In this document: piece by piece, positions 439-34,777 of the stretch | Layout of the letters: each line of letters begins with the position of its first letter | Numbering within the stretch: position 1 is the stretch's first letter | NCBI GenBank assembly: GCA_945861465.1 | Contig: CAMAVB010000040.1 | Coordinates: 1 to 40,086, forward strand | Direction of reading: 5' to 3' | Origin: Candidatus Kuenenia stuttgartensis | GTDB lineage: Bacteria > Planctomycetota > Planctomycetia > Planctomycetales > Planctomycetaceae | DNA: 40,086 bases | Notes under the pieces: model-generated | Database searches by the model: none | What the model was told of the DNA's origin: nothing | What the model saw: the letters and a program-made list of their open reading frames with translations, nothing else | Made by a program: the position numbers and the translations under genes

Positions 439-3400
439 ATGGCAAGTTCGGATATCGTGATTCGAGGAGCGCGGGAGCATAATCTTCGCAATATCAGCCT
501 GTCGCTGCCTCGCAATAAATTGATTGTGATGACCGGTGTCAGCGGTTCGGGCAAGAGTTCGCTCGCGTTTGATACGCTGTATGCCGAAGGACAACGACGG
601 TACGTGGAATCGCTGTCGACGTACGCGCGGCAGTTTCTGGGACAGATGCCGAAACCGGATGTGGATTCCATCTCAGGGCTGGCACCGTCGATTTCCATTC
701 AGCAGAAATCCACCAGCCGGAACCCACGCAGCACAGTCGGTACGATCACGGAGATCTTTGACTTTCTGCGCGTGCTCTACGCTCGAGTGGGTCAGGGGTA
801 TTGCTACGTCTCGGGCAAGCCGATTAAAGCGCAATCAACCGATCAGATTATTGACAGTCTGCTGAATCAGCCTGCCGGGACCAAATATCAGATTCTCGCA
901 CCCATTGTGCAGAATCAGAAGGGGGAGTTTCGCGATCTGTTCGAAGACCTCCTGAAACGCGGCTATCTCAGAGCGAGGATTGATGGCGAGATCGTAAACA
1001 TCAGCGACGCTCCGACGCTTCGCAAACATCATAAACACAACATTGAAGTTGTGATCGATCGACTGGTTGCCAGTGCAAGCCAGCGGACGCGCGTGGCCGA
1101 GGCGGTTGAGCAGGCATTGAAGCTGGCGGATGGGCGGTTGATCTGCAGTGTTGATGATTCGACGAGCGGCGGGCGTCAGCCGTCGAGTACAACTGCGATG
1201 CCCGCCGCTGAACGTAGGGTGGGACAAGGAGCGAAGCGACGACGGCCCACCGCTGAACCAGACATGGTGGCAGAATCGACCATCGACATAGACGCAGAAT
1301 CAACCAATGACATGGACGCAGAATCGGTGGGCCGGCGCGGCTTGTCAGCCGCTGGTCCCACCCTACGGCAAACGGATCGTCTCTACAGCGCGGACTATGC
1401 ATGTGCGGAAAGCGGGATGAGCTACGATCCGCCGAGTCCGCAGCTGTTCAGCTTCAACAGCCCGCTCGGGATGTGTCTGGACTGCAATGGTCTCGGCATG
1501 CGGCACGGGTTTCCGATGCATCATCTCGTGGCCGATGAGAGTAAATCGATTCAGAAGGGTGCCATGCTGCTGATGCCCGCATGGACGAAGATCGGACGGT
1601 GGCCGCGGCACTTGCTTGTCGGGGCTGCGAATGCGATCGAACAGGACTGCGGCCTGCCGGTTGACTCCCTGCTCAAGATGAAGTGGAATGAAATTCCCGA
1701 GGCCGCGAAGCAATTATGGCTCTACGGGACCGGCGAAAGACATGTTACGTTCACGTGGAAAACTCGGGCCGGCGCCTGGAAGCACGGCGGCAAGTGGGAA
1801 GGCTGGGCGAATCGCCTGCTGGAAAGTTATCGCACCGCCAAGAATCCAATGCGACGTCGGCAGCTCGAAAAGTACATGGAAGTCGCCGCATGTCCGTCAT
1901 GCCACGGCGAACGATTGAATCGTCAGGCACGCAACGTCCGGCTCCGCACGACGAGCAAGCGATTTGCGGCGCGGATCGGCGAGCGGCAGGGCGTCAGCCC
2001 TCCGTGTCAAACGTCATCGCGAACGACTCAGTCGAAAGGAATTGCAAACACGGAGGGCTTACGCCCAACCGCTCGCCGTTCTACGGAATTATCCCTGCCA
2101 CAGGTTTGCGCACTGTCGATTGAAGAATGCGCGGAGTTCTTTGATTCACTGAAGCTCGATGCGACTCAACAATTGATCGCGGAAGAAGCGTTGAAGGAAA
2201 TCCGTGGACGGCTGGGATTCCTGCTCCAGTGTGGGTTGAACTATCTGTCGCTTGATCGCTCGGCACCGACGCTTTCGGGGGGTGAATCGCAGCGGATTCG
2301 CCTCGCGGGACAAATCGGGTGCGGGCTGGTGGGAGTCGTCTATATTCTGGACGAACCGTCAATCGGACTGCATCCACGGGACAACACGATGCTGCTGGAA
2401 AGCCTGCAGCGATTGCGGGATCAGGGCAACACGGTGATCGTCGTCGAGCACGACGAAGAAACCATGCGAGCCGCAGACCATGTCGTCGATTTCGGGCCGG
2501 GCCCGGGAGTTCTGGGCGGCGAAGTTGTTGTCGAAGGAACGGTTGAGGATGTACTGAAGAGCGAACGCAGTGTGACGGGTGCGTTTCTGTCGGGGCGTCA
2601 GAAGATTGAGATCCCAAAACTGCGACGTAACCCGGATCGTGGCTCAATCGTTGTCCACAAAGCAACGCACAACAATCTCAAGGACGTGACGGTTCATTTT
2701 CCGCTCGGACGTTTGATCAGCGTGACGGGTGTGAGCGGTTCGGGCAAGAGTTCCGTCGTCAATGATATCCTGTGGCAGGTCGTGAACCGCGATATCAACA
2801 AAGGCGTCGGGGATCCCGGGCAGCACAAACACATCGACGGTCTGGAACTCATCGACAAGGGGATTGACATCGATCAGTCGCCGATCGGTCGCACGCCGCG
2901 GTCGAATCCTGCGACGTACGTCAAAGTCTTCGACGAGATCCGCAAGCTGTTCACGCAATTGCCGCAGTCAAAGATGCGCGGCTACAAAGAGGGGCGTTTC
3001 AGCTTTAACGTCGCCGACGGTCGCTGCGAAGCCTGCGAAGGACATGGCGCGACGAAGTTGAACATGGATTTTTTGGCGGACATCTGGATTCCATGCAATG
3101 TTTGCGAAGGACGGCGGTTCAATCATGAAACATTGGAGGTTAAGTTCCGCGATCACAGTATTGCGGACGTCCTGGATCTGGATATCGGCGAAGCCCTGAA
3201 GTTGTTCGAGAGCTTTCCGAAAATCCATCGCATGCTCCAAACGCTGTGCGACGTGGGTCTGGATTACATGCAACTGGGTCAGGCGTCACCGACATTGTCC
3301 GGCGGGGAAGCCCAACGCGTGAAACTGGCGCGAGAGCTGGGAAAACGATCAACGGGACGGACTCTCTACCTGCTGGATGAGCCGACGACGGGCCTGCATT

Positions 3401-6400
3401 TTGCCGACGTGAAGAAGCTCATCGAGGTGCTGCAGGGATTCGTCGAGGCTGGCAACACGGTCATCGTGATTGAACATAATCTCGACGTGATCAAGACTTC
3501 AGACTGGATCATTGACATCGGTCCCGAAGGCGGTGCGGGTGGCGGGCGGATTGTGATCGAGGGGACTCCGGAAGAAGTTGCGGCGTGTGATGAATCTTAT
3601 ACGGGGATCGCCCTGCGGACAGTACTGCCGGGCTTCAAACGAAATGGTGGAACGAAGAAGGGCAGTAGGGTGGGACAAGCGAGGCCGGCAAGCGCTGGCC
3701 CACCGAGTGTTCAGGTTGGCGATGGTGGGCCGGCGCGGCTTAGCAGCCGCTTGTCCCACCCTACATTCAGTGCAACAAGTAGTATTCGGATCGTGGGTGC
3801 AGCGCAGCACAATCTGCAGGGCATTGATCTTGAAGTGCCGCGTGAGCAAATGAGCGTCTTCTGTGGTCCGAGCGGCAGCGGCAAGACGTCGCTGGCCATG
3901 GACACGTTGTACGCCGAAGGCCAACGGCGATATGTTGAAAGTCTGTCCTCCTATGCAAGGCAGTTTCTGGGGCAGATGCCAAAGCCGCGAGTTGAGAGTA
4001 TTCAGGGTTTAAGTCCCGCAATTGCGATCGAACAGAAGACAGTCGGATCCACGCCACGTTCAACAGTCGGCACGGTGACGGAGGTCTACGACTATTTGCG
4101 CATTCTGTTCGCGCGTCTGGGCGACATGTATTGTCCGGAATGCCACGTGCCAGCCGTGCAGCAGACGACTGATCAGATCGTTGACAGTGTGATGAAGGTC
4201 GGAGCAGGTGCAAAGCTGCTGTTGCTGGCTCCGATGGATGTTGATCGAGCGACACCATTTAAGAGGGTGTGGGATCGCCTGCGGGCGAACGGGTTTGCTC
4301 GGGTTCGCGTCGATGGCAAGACGTATGGGATCGATGAAGTGCCGGAGATCGATCATAAGCAGGCCCATAATGTTGCAGTGGTTGTGGATCGAATTTCTGT
4401 GGATTCTAAACAGCGAAGTCGCATCGCCGATTCCATCGAAGCGGCGTTGGATCTGGGCAAGGGCATCATTCACGTCGCGGTCGCAGATGTTACAACGGAT
4501 GAGCCGCAATGGACTCAACACCGATACAGCCTCCATCTGTCATGCAGCAAATGTCAGCGTTCTTTTGAAAGGCAGACTCCGCAGAAGTTTTCGTTCAACA
4601 GCCCGCTCGGCTGGTGTCACGCATGCGAAGGCCTGGGAACTGAATTCGGTGCCAATCAGGCGTTATTGGTGACCAGTCCCGAACGCAGTCTGCTGGATGG
4701 GGCGATCGGAGCGTGGCCAAGCCCAAGGACCAATGTCCCGTTTCGCATGATGCTGGACGCCATTTCGACGACATTTGGTCTGCCGCTGGATCAGCCGTGG
4801 TATTTGCTGAGTCCCCCGCTGCAGCGGCTTGTTTTGTTTGGCGATGACAACACTTGGGTTGAAGTCGCTCCGGCGAGCGGTGGGCGTCAGCCCTCCGGTA
4901 CAAGTGACGTGGCGGTGACAGGGAACAGGAAAACATCAGGGAAACGGAAGAGTGCTGGTACGCCGACGGTTGAGATGGATTCGAGTGAGCGATCGGAATC
5001 TCAGTCGGCAGAGCGACTGAGCTACGGGACTTTCCGTTTCAAGTACAAGGGGCTTTATCCGGCTATTGAAGCGGCGTCACGGTTGTCATTTTCTCATCGC
5101 AAGTCTTTGATCGAAATGGCAGGCCAGCGCGACTGCACCAGGTGCCACGGCAGCCGGTTGGAGGCTGAAGCATCTGCCATGCGGCTGCGAAATCTCACGC
5201 TGCCTCAGTTGTGTCGCATGCCGCTGTCTCAATCGCTCGCGTTTCTGCTGGGTCTGAAGTTGTCAAAAGACGAAAAAAAGATTGCCGGCGATCTGCTCAA
5301 CGAGGCCACTCATCGCCTGAATTTCCTTGTCGAAGTGGGGCTGGATTATCTGACGCTGGATCGTTCGATGCCGACGCTGTCCGGGGGCGAATCGCAGCGC
5401 ATCCGCCTGGCAGGTCAGGCCGGGCGATCGCTGACCGGCGTGTTGTACGTGCTGGACGAACCAACAATCGGGCTGCACCCCCGCGATAACGGACGATTGC
5501 TGATTGCGCTCAAGCGACTGCGGGATCTTGGCAACACAGTGCTGCTGGTCGAACACGACAGGGAAGTTCTGAACGCTGCGGATCGGCTCTATGACTTTGG
5601 ACCTGGTGCCGGTCGGCTCGGCGGGACCGTTGTGGCTCAGGGAACACCGGCGGAGTTGAAGAAGAACAAAGCTTCGATGACAGGAGCGTATCTGGGTGGC
5701 ACGCGGTGCATTCCGGTGCCATCTGTGAGACGAATGGAATCCACTCTCCCCATTTCAGGGGGAGAGGGCAAGTCGGTGTCAAACCCCCTCATCCGGCCTT
5801 CGGCCACCTTCTCCCCCGATCTCGGGGGAGAAGGGCCATCACATGACTGGGTCGAGCTCCTGGGAGCACAGCAGCATAACCTGCAGAACGTTGATCTGCG
5901 GATTCCGCTGAAGACGTTTACCTGCATCACGGGCGTCAGCGGCTCGGGCAAGAGTTCGCTGATTATGGACACGCTGGCTCGAGCGGTAGCGCGGCGATTG
6001 AACATCATCGCGGATGCTCCTGGAGTATTTCGAGAACTCAAGGGAGTCGAACATCTGAGCAAGATCGTGCTGGTCGACCAGAATCCGATTGGCTCAACGC
6101 CTGCCTCCAATCCTGCGACGTATACCGGAATGTTCGATGAAATCCGTGAACTGTACTGCCGGATGCCCGAAGCGAAAGTACGCGGCTACCGCCCGGGACG
6201 TTTCAGCTTCAATCGTGCAGGAGGTCGCTGCGAAGACTGCGAAGGCATGGGTCAGCAGAAGATTGAAATGCACTTCCTGCCGGATGTCTGGGTCGAATGC
6301 CCGACTTGCCGGGGTCGGCGGTTCAATGCCGAAACTCTGACCGTCAGGTTCAACGACTGCAGTATTGCCGATGTGCTGGAAATGTCGATCAGTAAGGCCC

Positions 6401-8034
6401 TGGAACTGTTTTCCAACGTGCCCAAAATTCGCGGCCCGCTGGCGACCCTGGCAGCCATTGGTCTGGGATATCTGACGCTTGGCCAGTCTGCGCCCACACT
6501 CAGCGGCGGTGAGGCTCAACGCATCAAGTTAGCGGCGGAATTGTGTCGCCCGAATCGTGGCCGGACTTTGTATCTGCTCGATGAACCCACAACCGGCCTG
6601 CACTTTGACGACATCCTGAAACTGCTGAGCGTACTCAACAGCCTTGTTGAACAGGGCAACACGGTCGTTGTGATCGAACACAATCTCGACGTAATCAAGA
6701 CCGCTGACTGGATCATCGACCTCGGCCCGGAAGCCGGTGCCGGCGGCGGACAGATCGTCGTCCAGGGAACTCCGGAAGATGTCGTCGCCTACGCCACAGT
6801 AGGCGGATCTGGCTCAGATCCGCATTCGGCTGTCGCCTTACAGGCACTTCCTCAAGCCAACGCGAAACGCGCGAATCGCAGAATGCCAAAGTCTCGTGCC
6901 GCTGAGTTGGACGTAAATGTTGTCGATGTGCGGAGCGGAGATGACGCCGACCTGGGCCAGGTCGGCCTGCGATCCTGGACGGGCGAACTCCTGGCACCCG
7001 TCCTCGCGGAATCCTCGCGCGGTGCGATCGAGACATTTGACGCCGCCGCTGTGGCCGCGAAGCAAAAGGGTGATGTCAGCATCGAAGAACTCGGTCGATC
7101 CGCGAAATTGCCCTGGGAAGTCGATGGCTGCAAGTGGCACACTCAGGATCGCATCGCATACACGGGCCAGCCCTGCCGGTGGGAAGGACAAGCGTTGAAG
7201 TATGTGATCGAACTGCTGGAGAAAGAGACCGATCTCGCACCAACGAACTGGAAAGATCGAGCCACCGTCGAGGTCCGTGCCGACAAGGGACTCGGCTGGT
7301 TCCTGCATGCCCGCAGCGGTTTTGAATGGCTGTTGTGCTTGTGTTTTCGAGTCCGGAAGGACGCATTTACGACCGAAGAACTTGACGCCAGTCTGGGCTT
7401 AAAGCCGCTCGACGACATGGAGGACGTGCAGGCCTACGGTCGCGACCCTCGAGTGAAAACGCGGAACCTGAAAACGGCATGGCAGGAAGTGACCGTCAAG
7501 ATCTGGAACAAGTCGGAGGTCGATACACCCGCGTTTCGCCAGTTCCTGAAGCAGGCGCTGAAATCGTATCTGACTTTGTCAAAGGCAGAAGCGACAAATC
7601 CGGAAGACCTGATGCCGTGGAAACAACTCGGGCGCAAATGGCACTTGATGAAGAAGGGTGTGCCGGCAACCGGTCGCGGAGTCTGGGATATCCGGATAGT
7701 GGAGCGTCTGTTGCCTGTTGTGGAAATGCACCTGGAAAAATGCGACGTGGACTACGGAATCCGCAGCAAGATCAACTGGACAGAATCGAAGAGCGGCAAA
7801 CCGGTCGCCGAGCTGCACACCAAGCGATCCGACGGCGTTGATTTGGTTCTTTATTTTCCATCCGGAAAAGTCACCATCGGAGCCATCGCAGCCATGGGCG
7901 AAAGCCAGGAGATTCAGCCAGCCCGCAACGGGCAGGACGCAGTGCGGATTCGATTTACAAAGTTTGAACAACTCGGAGACACTGACCTGATCAGCCTGAT
8001 CATTGAATGCCGACGGAGCGGCTCGCCTACGTAG
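439..8034 (+). CDS. uvrA: Double UvrA (tandem-fused excinuclease ABC subunit A) with C-terminal extension
   Basis: UvrA is the damage-sensing ATPase of nucleotide excision repair; it normally works as a dimer of about 940-residue subunits that loads UvrB. Here one 2531-residue chain carries two complete UvrA units. Unit 1 spans about residues 1-1060: Walker [10 protein letters not shown] near 33 and 764, signatures LSGGESQR near 612 and LSGGEAQR near 953, Walker B ILDEP and LLDEP. Unit 2 spans about 1113-2117: Walker A near 1143 and 1832, signatures near 1647 and 2021. Zinc motifs CPSCHG, CEACEG, CTRCHG and CEDCEG are present. The insertion-domain zinc site of unit 1 has Ser325 where unit 2 has a Cys. 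Residues about 2140-2531 match no family I recognise. Several low-complexity segments coincide with palindromic DNA repeats. The start is supported by the typical UvrA beginning ([14 protein letters not shown]); the ribosome binding site is weak. Confidence 0.95.
1160..1366. repeat. Composite palindromic element inside uvrA (R1), in frame
   Basis: Two nested palindromes lie within the coding sequence. AGCGGCGGGC at 1165-1174 pairs with GCCCGCCGCT at 1200-1209, and GTAGGGTGGGAC at 1214-1225 pairs with GTCCCACCCTAC at 1355-1366. The 40 bases at 1327-1366 are almost identical to 3725-3764 (R3). It encodes about residues 241-309 of UvrA, a segment absent from the matching place in the second unit. 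Confidence 0.85.
1977..2078. repeat. Palindromic element inside uvrA (R2), in frame
   Basis: CGGCGAGC at 1977-1984 pairs with GCTCGCCG at 2071-2078, followed inward by GGCGTCAGCCCTCCGTGT against its near-complement ACACGGAGGGCTTACGCC. It encodes about 35 residues between two conserved motifs (RLR and LSLPQ) that are adjacent in the second UvrA unit (RLRNLTLPQ). Half-copies of the same family lie at 4871-4901 and 34751-34777. Confidence 0.85.
3665..3764. repeat. Palindromic element in the linker between the two UvrA units (R3)
   Basis: GTAGGGTGGGACAAGC at 3665-3680 is a perfect 16-base complement of GCTTGTCCCACCCTAC at 3749-3764. It is read through in frame as a Gly/Pro/Ser/Arg-rich linker, about residues 1076-1109, between UvrA unit 1 and unit 2. 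It belongs to the same family as the second half of R1. Confidence 0.9.
4871..4901. repeat. Half-palindromic repeat inside uvrA (R4)
   Basis: The 31 bases starting CGGCGAGCGG and ending CCCTCCGGTAC match the left half of R2. They open a 49-residue hydrophilic insertion (about residues 1479-1527) in the second UvrA unit. The right half is no longer a clear complement, so this looks like a decayed copy. Confidence 0.65.
5743..5833. repeat. Palindromic CTCTCCCC/GGGGAGAG element inside uvrA (R5)
   Basis: CTCTCCCC at 5744-5751 faces GGGGAGAG at 5759-5766, and TTCTCCCCC at 5809-5817 faces GGGGGAGAA at 5824-5832, with a CCGGCCTTCGGCC hairpin between them. It is translated in frame as about residues 1768-1799, between the signature lobe and the second nucleotide-binding domain of unit 2. 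The same core occurs outside genes near 18038-18062. Confidence 0.85.
6790..6843. repeat. Palindromic element after the second UvrA unit (R6)
   Basis: GCGGATCT at 6803-6810 pairs with AGATCCGC at 6816-6823, with outer arms GTAGGCG and CGCCTTAC. It is translated in frame as a Gly/Ser-rich stretch (about residues 2118-2135) exactly at the junction between UvrA unit 2 and the C-terminal extension. Confidence 0.75.
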
Positions 8035-8060
8035 GTCCGCCGCTCCGTCGGCGGACATTT
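8009..8060. terminator. Palindrome spanning the uvrA stop codon (R7), possible terminator
   Basis: GCCGACGGAGCGG at 8009-8021 pairs perfectly with CCGCTCCGTCGGC at 8040-8052. The uvrA stop codon TAG (8032-8034) lies in the loop, so the last seven or so residues of the protein are encoded by the repeat. A short T-run (8058-8062) follows the stem, so it could end transcription. It may equally be another dispersed palindrome that supplied the stop. Confidence 0.6.
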
Positions 8061-11734: not shown

Positions 11735-11762
11735 CGCCAATCATCAAACGTGAAGCGTCTGC

Positions 11763-11916
11763 TAAGGCGAGCGGCAGAGAAGAATTTACCTCCTGTACGA
11801 CGGACATCCTTGTCCGTCGTTTGTTTCGGCTGTACGACGGACATCCTTGTCCGTCGTTTGTTTCGGCGGACTTGGAAGTCCGCTGTACGGTAAGAACTTG
11901 TCCGCCGCTCGCCTTA
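11763..11916. mobile_element. MITE-like palindromic element with TAAGGCGAGCGG termini (copy 1)
   Basis: The left end TAAGGCGAGCGGCAG (11763-11777) is matched by the inverted right end CCGCTCGCCTTA (11905-11916). Inside, a 37-base hairpin unit containing ACGACGGACA...TGTCCGTCGT is duplicated exactly (11794-11830 and 11831-11867). The same termini bound the elements at 28239-28380 and 28783-28909. It has no coding capacity. The right end supplies the TAA stop of ppk2 (complement of 11914-11916). Confidence 0.85.
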
Positions 11917-17987: not shown

Positions 17988-18094
17988 CTTAGGACCGCTC
18001 GAGAAATAACTGTCTCTTTTTATACCCCTCACCCTGCCCTCTCCCCTTCCAGGGGAGAGGAGGATGCGGTCAATTATTTCTCGAACGGTCCTTA
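17988..18094. mobile_element. MITE-like palindromic element, CTTAGGACCG/CGGTCCTTA termini
   Basis: The left end reads CTTAGGACCG...TCGAGAAATAA and the right end TTATTTCTCGA...CGGTCCTTA, giving imperfect terminal inverted repeats of about 20 bases. The middle carries CCTCTCCCC/GGGGAGAGG, the same core as R5 in uvrA. There is no coding capacity. Its last three bases are the stop codon (on the minus strand) of the next gene. Confidence 0.8.
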
Positions 18095-23278: not shown

Positions 23279-23388
23279 TCGTTTAACCGCGTGGGCAACG
23301 CCCCTCGCTTTGAATTTTCAAATCTCAAATCTCAAATATGAAATTTCAAATAGAACAATCGCGGCCCGCTGGGCACGCGGTTAAACGA
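23279..23388. repeat. Palindromic element with TCGTTTAAC/GTTAAACGA-type ends
   Basis: TCGTTTAACCGCGTGGGC starts at 23279 and GCCCGCTGGGCACGCGGTTAAACGA-type arms end at 23388; the outer 14 bases pair almost perfectly. The middle contains AAATCTCAAATCTC repeats of the kind found at 25026 and 25898. The same outer ends bound the element at 33694-33762. Confidence 0.8.
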
Positions 23389-24876: not shown

Positions 24877-25153
24877 ATGCACGCCGAAAACCAGTTCTTT
24901 CGCGAAGCGCATGTGCGACTCTATCGCCACCTCTGTGCGCCGCCGCCGCCGGACAGGCTCGACGCCCCCCTCCTCACCAACGCCTTCGACCACTTGCCTT
25001 TGGGCCGCACCGCGATCGACGCGGCGATCCTCAGGAAATTTGAAATTGGAAATCTCAAATCTCAAATTTCAAATTTCCCGCGCCGCGTTCGGCCTCAGCC
25101 GCAGCTGCCCAGACGCGGAACGGGCATTGCTTGCCGAAATCCAATCGTCCTGA
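24877..25153 (+). pseudogene. Possible gene remnant split by an A/T-rich repeat
   Basis: From ATG 24877, about 50 codons (MHAENQFFREAHVRLYRHL and onward to PLGRTAIDAAIL) show strong G/C bias at third positions, as in real genes here. The A/T-rich repeat at 25026-25078 interrupts it. Beyond the repeat a second G/C-biased stretch (RAAFGLSRSCPDAERALLAEI, ending TGA at 25153) continues in a different frame. This suggests a short gene broken by insertion of the repeat. I recognise no family, and the call rests on codon bias only. Confidence 0.25.
25026..25078. repeat. A/T-rich repeat AAATTTGAAATT...CTCAAATC (copy 1)
   Basis: It begins ATCCTCAGGAAATTTGAAAT and continues with AAATCTCAAATCTCAAATTTC, giving an imperfect palindrome of AAATTTGA and TCAAATTT arms. 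The first 20 bases recur exactly at 25160. Confidence 0.8.
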
Positions 25154-25159
25154 GCGGCC

Positions 25160-25201
25160 ATCCTCAGGAAATTTGAAATCCCAAATTTGAAATTTCAAAT
25201 T
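25160..25201. repeat. A/T-rich repeat (copy 2)
   Basis: It shares the 20-base start ATCCTCAGGAAATTTGAAAT with copy 1, then CCCAAATTTGAAATTTCAAAT. The shared flank upstream of the A/T core shows that the duplicated unit is larger than the A/T core itself. Confidence 0.8.
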
Positions 25202-28200: not shown

Positions 28201-28238
28201 AACTCAAGCTTTCGTAAAGGTAGAAGCTCACAGGCATT

Positions 28239-28380
28239 TAAGGCGAGCGGCAGGATAGAACTTACCATTCGCAATTTGTACGACGGACTTCCAGTCCGTC
28301 GAGTAGCACCATGCGACGGACTGGAAGTCGACGGACTGGAAGTCCGTCGTACCGGTATATTCATTTCTGCCGCTCGCCTA
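28239..28380 (-). mobile_element. MITE-like element with TAAGGCGAGCGG termini (copy 2, inverted)
   Basis: It starts TAAGGCGAGCGGCAG at 28239 and ends CTGCCGCTCGCCTA at 28380, with inner hairpins built from ACGGACTTCCAGTCCGT. Read on the minus strand it matches copy 3 base for base, apart from a 15-base tandem duplication (CGACGGACTGGAAGT unit) and one substitution near the left end of the minus-strand copy. Length 142. No coding capacity. Confidence 0.9.
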
Positions 28381-28782
28381 AGCGGACTGCAATCAGGCGA
28401 TGATATCAAGTGCGGTCCTGCGTGGCGATCATTTCGAGTCGATGCGCAGGGTTGGGTGTAATCCTTGATGCAGTGCGAAGCTTCCGTTTCCGTTGAGCCG
28501 CGCGAATGACCCAAATGTCGCCTTTCAAATGCAGCAATCCCGACGCCAATCAGCATCAACTGCAAAATCACGGCAAATCCGCTGAACCATGACCATGAGC
28601 TTCGTAAATTGTGCTAAAACTCCTGACTTTTTCCCGGTAAAGATGAGCCAGGCAGAATCGACCTACCCAAACTGCTGCCCGGCAGGTATCAGAATCCTGC
28701 AAAGAACCGAAGTCAGCGTCTGCACACTGTCTTGAGCGTCAACCGTAAAAGCGATCCGCAGGCAAGGCTTGTGTGACTATGA

Positions 28783-28909
28783 TAAGGCGAGCGGCAGAAA
28801 TGAATTTACCGGTACGACGGACTTCCAGTCCGTCGCATGGTGCTACTCGACGGACTGGAAGTCCGTCGTACAAATTGCGAATGGTAAGTTCTATCCTGCC
28901 GCTCGCCTA
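28783..28909 (+). mobile_element. MITE-like element with TAAGGCGAGCGG termini (copy 3)
   Basis: It starts TAAGGCGAGCGGCAG at 28783 and ends CTGCCGCTCGCCTA at 28909. It is 127 bases long and almost identical to the reverse complement of 28239-28380. It lies directly upstream of bioD, so it may carry or disturb the bioD promoter. Confidence 0.9.
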
Positions 28910-28932
28910 AAGCAATGATTGAATGGAACAGA

Positions 28933-33400: not shown

Positions 33401-33847
33401 GGTGTGGAGTCTTAGCGGACTAAGGCAGGAAGGGCAATGGATGTGGTTGAGGCATCTCGCCTGCACTGCCAGCTGCCAGCTGCCTGGACTGCGTATTCCG
33501 GAAATCCCGCCGACCGGAAACTGACCTGCAGTCAATCCGTCAAAATGACAATTCACATGATCACTGGAATCGGCCTGTTGCTTTTTTTCATCATTCAGCA
33601 GAATACACCCCTGCTCGGCGAGGTATGTTGTCTGACGGAGGACGAATGGAGCACACGAGTCGGGCGTTGCCGCCACGCGGGTTGTAGATTTAATCGTTTA
33701 ACGGCAAGCCGCAAGCGTCGGCATACCTTGGCAACATTCGCCTGCGGCTTGCCGTTAAACGAAAACCTGATCCGAGTGCCCAAATCAACAGACCGGATGC
33801 CAGGCTGGATGTTCTTCTTGAATCTGCGTTGTACCGGAGATTTCTTC
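33401..33847. other. Intergenic region between divergent genes
   Basis: About 447 bases with CTGCCAGCTGCCAGCTGCC near 33464 and the palindrome at 33694-33762. An open frame runs in phase into the DedA gene from 33437, but it crosses the palindrome and lacks family features, so I treat it as untranslated. Confidence 0.5.
33694..33762. repeat. Palindromic element with TCGTTTAAC/GTTAAACGA ends
   Basis: TCGTTTAACGGCAAGCCGCA starts at 33694 and the complementary TGCGGCTTGCCGTTAAACGA ends at 33762; the 20-base arms pair perfectly around a 29-base loop. The outer ends match the element at 23279-23388. Confidence 0.9.
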
Positions 33848-34750: not shown

Positions 34751-34777
34751 CGCGAGCGGACCGGCGTGAGCCCTCCG
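34751..34777. repeat. Half-copy of the GAGCGG...GGCGTNAGCCCTCCG repeat
   Basis: CGCGAGCGGACCGGCGTGAG followed by CCCTCCG matches the left arm of R2 (1977) and R4 (4871) in uvrA. The complementary arm is missing. This shows the family also exists outside genes. Confidence 0.7.

Follow-up and report, generated by a model that had tools for sequence, protein, structure and literature searches.

In-frame palindromic repeats of several families within a fused uvrA gene of a planctomycete

Insertion of palindromic repeats in frame into genes is not new; for REPs it was described in 2013 in other phyla, and in Rickettsia earlier. The Rickettsia elements were reported as palindromes of about 100 bp lying in frame in conserved proteins, with orthologues carrying elements of distinct groups at about one position, an excinuclease ABC subunit among them, and the cited parts of those accounts describe them without a link to RAYT genes (PMC2229807, PMC3767692). 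Intragenic GTAG-type REPs were described as palindromes in inverted dimers that also flank RAYT genes; both uvrA genes of Opitutus terrae carry double insertions of them, uvrA of Thioalkalivibrio contains them, and they occur inside other repair, helicase and tRNA synthetase genes, while REP termini can provide TAG stop codons (PMC3733652). In Pseudomonas REPINs, inverted REP pairs are the apparent mobile unit and are RAYT-linked, as here for one family, and they are almost wholly extragenic, with 14 of 1,067 16-mers overlapping genes (PMC3116915). The host protein is known as well: fusion of two uvrA genes into a double UvrA is a planctomycete trait, reported in a work whose section on it makes no mention of repeats (PMC8567305). 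A preliminary description of the present locus likened its inserts to the Rickettsia elements and knew of no planctomycete equivalent; there is precedent, since GTAG-type REPs had been reported from Planctomycetes alongside the uvrA cases of other phyla (PMC3733652, 2013).

The window, the whole stretch of 40,086 nucleotides that was analysed, belongs to a draft genome of Candidatus Kuenenia stuttgartensis (474 contigs, contamination 3.71%), whose genes (n = 1264) were predicted with a home-made gene finder, with uncertain start positions. The uvrA product (439-8034) exceeded the cut-offs of the UvrA models TIGR00630 and NF001503 in a profile search. A UvrA match was present in all 59 genomes searched, the own genome counted, and the own genome also encodes a second, single UvrA-type frame. 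At least four palindrome families (A, B, C and L), each repeated elsewhere, have in-frame members in the fused gene, whose features were as follows.

439-8034, plus strand: fused double UvrA of 2531 aa, a single open frame and the host gene of the insertions
1161-1190, plus strand: decayed family B unit of site 1, by comparison with L030, a relative whose copy there is intact
1214-1252, plus strand: family A unit with GTAG foot, left half of the site 1 pair, by pattern match
1326-1366, minus strand: family A unit, right half of the site 1 pair, by pattern and alignment
1977-2078, unstranded: family B inverted pair of site 2, residues 513-547, hairpin score 22
3665-3764, unstranded: family A inverted pair of site 3, in the linker joining the two UvrA units, by repeat pattern
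4872-4901, plus strand: single family B unit of site 4, exact match to the strict B pattern, and by alignment
4995-5026, minus strand: GTAG-footed family L unit of site 4, by repeat scans and family count
5743-5833, unstranded: family C (CCCTCTCCCC type) palindrome of site 5, by alignment and by motif and hairpin scans
6790-6843, unstranded: weak palindrome of site 6, below score 12 and unsupported as a repeat element
8009-8052, unstranded: palindrome spanning the end of uvrA, by its arms and the frame end at 8034

The preliminary description had proposed five palindromes and one decayed half inside uvrA. Four of the palindromes (1160-1366, 1977-2078, 3665-3764 and 5743-5833) were recovered, the partial element near 4871-4901 proved to be the single B unit of site 4, and two near-identical stretches of about 40 bases (1326-1366 and 3724-3764) both belonged to family A. 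At site 1, the linker segment between the two inverted A units was also found in relatives, and the site 3 pair was predicted to fold as a single long hairpin. The fifth palindrome, 6790-6843, was rejected as a repeat element, as its best stem was 9 bp and under the score threshold of 12, its core motif had only 5 matches in 2.36 Mb, and the homologous stretch exists in the relative L020 but is not the same palindrome. The proposed single class of repeat gave way to at least four families.

The palindromes might have arisen in place from linker sequence, by local duplication or codon bias. Linkers are generally variable, and several hairpins of distant uvrA orthologues consist of short tandem units, so that such an origin is possible for those orthologues. 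The A, B, C and L palindromes of the window, however, have copies elsewhere in the genome, and codon shuffles produced almost no such palindromes: inverted repeats scoring at least 12 numbered 4 in the real uvrA and 1 across 8 shuffles combined, and one shuffle of each of 58 planctomycete uvrA ORFs gave 3 hairpins in total. We therefore regard an origin in place as highly improbable.

Family A gave 350 matches genome-wide (control 0), and 12 of 107 matches in the sample lay within predicted genes (control 2), the high-copy, mostly extragenic distribution of REPs. Consensus and fold indicated that a single unit is an imperfect hairpin with an unpaired GTAG at its foot, again as in REPs. The units formed 44 inverted pairs and 19 singles with the recurring spacing of REPINs, the commonest lengths of pairs outside genes being 78 bp (13/39) and 77 bp (7/39). 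Units of this family lie on both sides of a RAYT gene on contig C309, as expected of REPs, and its product scored above the cut-off of model NF047646 (E 4.5e-55) and matched TnpArep, PDB 4er8 (E 1.3e-38). Across the Y1 loci, family A units adjoined 2 of 19, and RAYT-like frames other than that on C309 fell under the NF047646 cut-off.

In the genus set of 18 genomes, close RAYT orthologues were confined to congeners carrying family A: RAYT matches at 83-85% identity occurred in G014, G004 and G003 and the own genome, with 92, 29, 15 and 350 family A matches, respectively, and no RAYT match at E 1e-20 was obtained in the 11 genomes where family A matched 0-2 times. Family A matched 35, 15 and 8 times in G015, G012 and G017, respectively, none of which has a close RAYT orthologue (the match in G017 reached 51% identity only), and all three assemblies are incomplete. 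These findings indicated that family A is probably a RAYT-linked REP/REPIN of the GTAG superfamily, and from the co-occurrence we infer that the RAYT may mobilise it.

The units of family B start GGCGAGCGG and lack the GTAG foot of REPs, and the family is classed only as a palindromic repeat that may work like a REP. It was the commonest family in genes, with 25 of 98 hits by a looser pattern in 2.36 Mb; the strict pattern, which the commonest B form does not fit, matched the own genome only 6 times for that reason (control 0). Among the 19 Y1 loci, no RAYT flanked by the genic form of family B was found; B-like variants only adjoined 2 of the 19, where the RAYT-like genes fell below the curated cut-off. 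Family L had 32 hits in the sample, self-complementary units being counted on both strands, or 21 elements (control 0). Recurrence outside genes, as first described, was seen for a B-like element at 34751-34777 and a C-like one at 18038-18062, both outside predicted genes. Of the six possible frames, 2.90 were open per inverted pair for A, 2.48 for B, 1.81 for D and 1.45 for F, and pairs inside predicted genes numbered 5/44 for A, 8/29 for B, 0/42 for D and 0/22 for F, where the labels D, F and K denote different patterns in this pair analysis than in the hit count. The relation to open frames was uneven, as A leaves more frames open than B but has fewer copies in genes.

Within the protein, the inserts at sites 1, 2, 4 and 5 have no such counterpart in a solved UvrA or in the other UvrA unit, consistent with the earlier observation that each falls where the other half lacks sequence. 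In phmmer alignments to 9gxk, unit 1 broke at 238/313 and 500/553, and unit 2 at 366/420 and 658/692 (unit 2 numbering; add 1108). The inserts were located in stretches with pLDDT below 50 in a moderate structure model (mean pLDDT 64.4, pTM 0.46), in which 13 segments fell under 50, some of them conserved (e.g., 51-98 and 607-622). The inserts, low-confidence loops in this model, may add surface segments to UvrA, as first proposed.

Comparison with orthologues showed the inserts present or absent as units at sites 2 and 3, and a different family at site 5. At site 2, 22 of 30 aligned ORFs (including at least two same-genome pairs, L042/L106 and L027/L114) were gapped over residues 513-545; the 33-residue segment was missing in both closest relatives by alignment identity, L030 and L020. 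At site 3, the A pair was common to the window and L030 at the same position and absent from L020; this insertion was not clean, the 100-bp element corresponding to a net gain of 75 bp. Site 5 holds family C in the window, whereas L030 has a family B pair there. The outcome that would have spoken against insertion, identical segments of conserved protein in every orthologue, was not observed. In-frame palindromes in a conserved protein that orthologues lack, at linkers and with unit-like presence and absence, agree with the resemblance to Rickettsia elements first proposed, although the inserts can only be said to work like those elements, a likeness by description and not by sequence. The draft state of the assembly and its contamination could point to a chimera or binning artefact; palindromes at the same sites in separate assemblies, and the presence of this A pair at an identical position in L030, make this highly improbable.

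Strong hairpins in the 58 planctomycete uvrA ORFs (57 of 72 ORF rows plus the window; 15 were dropped, being the window itself, duplicates and pieces) lay within six variable sites in 47 of 52 cases, and these sites make up 14.7% of the protein. Between species, the same uvrA joints host different repeats. Genome-wide, repeats avoided genes: 29 of 711 elements in 2.36 Mb lay deep inside genes (17 in number), although 75.3% of the sample was predicted coding. This count leaves out 18 elements at gene edges and includes one low-complexity GGT repeat (C33) and two weak 22-nt hits. Lengths divisible by 3 were not clearly enriched (9/13 A and B pairs in genes vs 29/60 outside), and genic enrichment of frame-preserving lengths was dropped as an argument.

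We consider it very probable that RAYT-type scatter brought REP/REPIN-type and related repeats into uvrA, and that selection spared copies that are stop-free, keep the frame and lie in disordered linkers. Family A would then be non-autonomous elements spread by host RAYT (Y1 tyrosine) transposases, and other families may be spread by RAYTs too. Most genic insertions would be purged; survivors would have no stop in the host frame, an intact overall frame and a location in disordered linkers or loops, and would subsequently decay to ordinary linker sequence. The fused UvrA has several long linkers and would therefore accumulate repeats, with species differing in which repeats fill a given linker. 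The segments are presumably translated, with the RAYT as the putative mover and an effect on the protein that would be near neutral. Some observations weigh against this reading: the missing GTAG foot of family B and the lack of a flanked RAYT among the loci examined for it, the three genomes with A matches but no close RAYT orthologue, the uneven relation to open frames, the unclean insertion at site 3, the lack of clear enrichment of lengths divisible by 3 and the moderate quality of the structure model. A further one is G024, which has 59 strict B matches while its uvrA (L028, assigned by equal frame length) lacks a strong hairpin.

Selection might instead have favoured the insertions, for tuning of repair or for mRNA hairpins that pause ribosomes at domain boundaries. 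Hairpins scoring at least 15 had a density of 0.117 per kb across 35 uvrA loci, 0.045 across the 118 ORFs that flank uvrA in these loci and 0.011 across 856 own genes, and deep elements outside the window were also found in mutL, helicases, ileS and valS. A similar bias was reported in other bacteria, with speculation on altered repair (PMC3733652). Four of 9 strict B matches of G014 lay inside its uvrA, a figure biased by the strict pattern having been drawn from window copies. However, many genes with deep elements are unconnected to repair (cyclase-like, ABC exporter-like, WD40, NB-ARC, efflux and TPR), and 34 of the 58 uvrA ORFs had no strong hairpin. The linkers also appeared free to change, with a dN of 0.351 at site 1 vs 0.035 in the core (window vs L030).

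The arms of the hairpins gave a divided picture. The arms of site 3 were unchanged, but divergence, low in the right arm, stayed low into the adjoining coding sequence. IleRS in the same genus showed similar repeat turnover at its linkers; there, element 3 differed at 1 of 72 positions while 4-fold sites differed at 114 of 473 between the same two species, with a divergence dip centred on the element, and element 1 showed no dip. As these cases disagree, hairpin-arm conservation was dropped as proof of selection. Favoured insertion is considered unlikely. An equally doubtful proposal is that Planctomycetota UvrA linkers are a preferred long-term home, in which unrelated families succeed one another at the six linkers under selection because hairpins or supplied linkers help the giant fused protein, for instance through translational pauses between domains or adjustment of repair.

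Scatter by RAYTs followed by tolerance at linkers remains the preferred reading. Compared with the REPs of PMC3733652, as described there, our case differs in its planctomycete host, in the several families found in a single gene and in orthologues that bear differing repeats at shared linkers. The study extends in-frame REP insertion to a planctomycete, ties one repeat family to a specific transposase gene, and documents, over many species, that fixed linkers in a single conserved protein carry differing repeats. This provides a comparative system for testing whether REPs target or favour repair genes or are merely tolerated there.

Two items in the uvrA region were absent from the preliminary description. 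One was the family L unit at 4995-5026. The other was the palindrome at 8009-8052, whose end 14-mer occurred 17 times in 1.64 Mb and whose central GTAG provides the TAG stop codon of uvrA.

The window's single long open frame at 439-8034 (2531 aa) is a planctomycete fused double UvrA: UvrA family models scored above their cut-offs on it, a UvrA match was found in 59 of 59 genomes searched (own genome counted), and, according to excerpts of PMC8567305, such a planctomycete fusion is already published. The genome also has a second, single UvrA-type frame (L242:7515-8999, contig C171). The palindromes listed by the preliminary description were present within the fused frame, with 6790-6843 excepted as a repeat; four inverted repeats scoring at least 12 were found in the window's uvrA, compared with one in eight codon shuffles pooled. 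The palindrome at 6790-6843 was weak and belonged to no repeat family, and was rejected as a repeat element, its core motif J having 5 matches in a 2.36-Mb sample. Two features had been overlooked:

4995-5026, minus strand: GTAG-footed unit of family L, from repeat scans
8009-8052: palindrome across the uvrA end, its GTAG supplying the stop codon

The left arm of the latter encodes the last UvrA residues, and the stop is the TAG of its central GTAG.

Sequence matches showed the uvrA palindromes to be members of genome-wide repeats, 6790-6843 excepted. The pattern of family A, which has a GTAG foot, matched 177 times forward and 173 times in reverse in the 8.22-Mb genome (control 0), and ten motifs were counted in the sample.

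Repeat motifs in the 2.36-Mb sample (48 contigs, window among them), both strands, self-complementary motifs possibly counted twice: matches; reversed-sequence control; matches within predicted genes
A: 107; 2; 12
B: 98; 0; 25
K: 84; 0; 11
N: 68; 4; 1
F: 61; 0; 0
D: 58; 1; 1
L: 32; 0; 2 (one element)
C: 19; 0; 2
M: 11; 0; 6
J (core of 6790-6843): 5; 0; 4

Other palindromic repeats of the window, outside uvrA (28236-28910, 11760-11916, 25034-25201, 23279-23388, 33694-33762), had motifs with many copies in the sample.

Comparison with orthologues showed that the uvrA palindromes are insertions. In this comparison, which the preliminary description had proposed, the site 2 and site 3 segments were present or absent among relatives; 30 ORFs were aligned, with residues inspected for the first 22 and DNA for eight of these and the window. 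The site 2 segment (1977-2078; residues 513-545, 33 residues) was covered by a gap in 22 of the 30 orthologue ORFs, and both closest relatives, L030 (91% identical) and L020 (90%), were among those without it. The site 3 segment (3665-3764) was common to the window and L030 and missing in L020, while site 5 (5743-5833) held a family C palindrome in the window, a family B pair in L030 and neither in L020. At site 1 (1160-1366), the stretch AEPDMVAE..., also present in relatives, was bracketed by two family A units in the window. The phmmer alignment to the solved UvrA 9gxk broke at inserts (238 to 313 and 500 to 553; in unit 2 numbering, 366 to 420 and 658 to 692). The AlphaFold2 model of unit 1, the first UvrA half (mean pLDDT 64.4, pTM 0.46), had 13 segments below 50, three of them inserts (241-310, 517-547, 1068-1108); conserved stretches, e.g. 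51-98, were likewise low. Foldseek with this model gave UvrA chains as best matches, at TM-scores near 0.37 when normalised to the query length.

Across 58 uvrA ORFs, 52 hairpins of score at least 13 were found, several overlapping within one gene and not all separate events; 24 ORFs had at least one, and codon shuffling, once per gene, yielded 3. Forty-seven lay in six variable sites set from the window's uvrA and spanning 373 of 2531 residues (site 1, 12; site 2, 4; site 3, 5; site 4, 12; site 5, 10; site 6, 4), and 5 lay elsewhere. At a score of at least 15, hairpins numbered 28 across the 239 kb of 35 uvrA loci, 13 of which had any. Flanking ORFs, some of them possibly spurious, gave 8 over 179 kb, and the genome's own genes of at least 300 aa gave 17 over 1514 kb. 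In distant species, many uvrA hairpins were made of short tandem units. Four of nine strict family B matches in the congener G014 fell inside its uvrA, a share biased by a pattern drawn from the window. IleRS showed similar linker turnover in the genus: at one linker the window and G014 had family B, the congener G011 had a C-type stretch by peptide, and several other congeners had just a short linker.

In-frame REP insertion was already known. Excerpts of PMC3733652 report GTAG REPs within both Opitutus terrae uvrA genes, in Thioalkalivibrio uvrA and in further repair, helicase and tRNA synthetase genes, record REPs in Planctomycetes, and doubt chance as the cause of repair-gene REPs. Rickettsia elements act similarly, in behaviour resembling the uvrA insertions here (PMC3767692, in part). 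Because of these precedents, the insertion is of a known kind, and a literature search on planctomycete or intragenic REPs gave no further paper on this case among the matches listed in the one library searched. The point of interest here is the recurrence at fixed linkers.

Repeat elements avoid genes. With 1264 genes called by a home-made gene finder (75.3% of the sample), 611 of 711 elements lay outside genes, 53 across a gene end, 18 at a gene edge and 29 deep in 17 genes. The window was picked for its uvrA, where 5 of the 29 lie; with it set aside, 24 remain in 16 genes. Family matches placed mutL and valS above cut-off, and ileS (three elements) and purL below it, being fragments cut by the fetched stretch. 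Further matches were two helicases (presumably one Lhr-like and one HrpA-like), cyclase-like, ABC exporter-like, WD40, two NB-ARC, efflux, sulfatase-modifying-factor-like, DUF7133 and TPR genes; one case was low-complexity. Near-identical family K peptides (TETEISGARFHRA...HV...KTTVISA) occurred in unrelated predicted proteins at loci L180, L218 and L220 (a helicase, an outer-membrane efflux protein and a TIR/NB-ARC protein), and close to predicted gene starts on contigs C6 and C3. Inverted pairs of A and B had 2.90 and 2.48 open frames of 6, with 5/44 and 8/29 in predicted genes; F and D pairs, by patterns specific to this comparison, had 1.45 and 1.81, with 0/22 and 0/42. The relation is not smooth, because B exceeds A; a similar contrast of open and stop-rich forms, resembling A and B against F and D, is described for Correia elements in part of PMC2229807.

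Tolerance is our main explanation for the uvrA repeats, with selection left as the alternative. Between the window and L030, core uvrA had a dS of 0.514 and a dN of 0.035; the site 1 dN of 0.351 is what a free linker should show. The shared site 3 arms were unchanged, and low divergence at the right arm carried on into adjoining coding sequence. In IleRS, a divergence dip was centred on element 3, and none was found at element 1.

The own genome had 19 Y1 transposase matches, with A units near 2 and B-like variants near 2. The gene on contig C309 was a REP-associated tyrosine transposase (RAYT; NF047646, E 4.5e-55, above cut-off), closest among solved chains to TnpArep 4er8 (E 1.3e-38) and bracketed on both sides by family A units, and we infer movement of these repeats. 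Three further frames scored under the NF047646 cut-off. In the 18-genome genus set, RAYT matches of 83-85% identity occurred in congeners G014, G004 and G003, which had 92, 29 and 15 A matches (own genome, also with RAYT, 350). No such orthologue was found in G015 (35 A matches), G012 (15) or G017 (8; best RAYT match 51%), and in the remaining 11 genomes the A pattern matched 0 to 2 times and the RAYT search at E 1e-20 found nothing. Other genera have more remote RAYT relatives (45-58%). Upstream of the family A RAYT, L243:101-671 is a repeat array of about 179-bp spacing with A units in both orientations per repeat. On contig C202, the 5' part of a RAYT-like frame (L246:3024-3800) contains a palindrome of family K, a repeat within or just ahead of a transposase gene.
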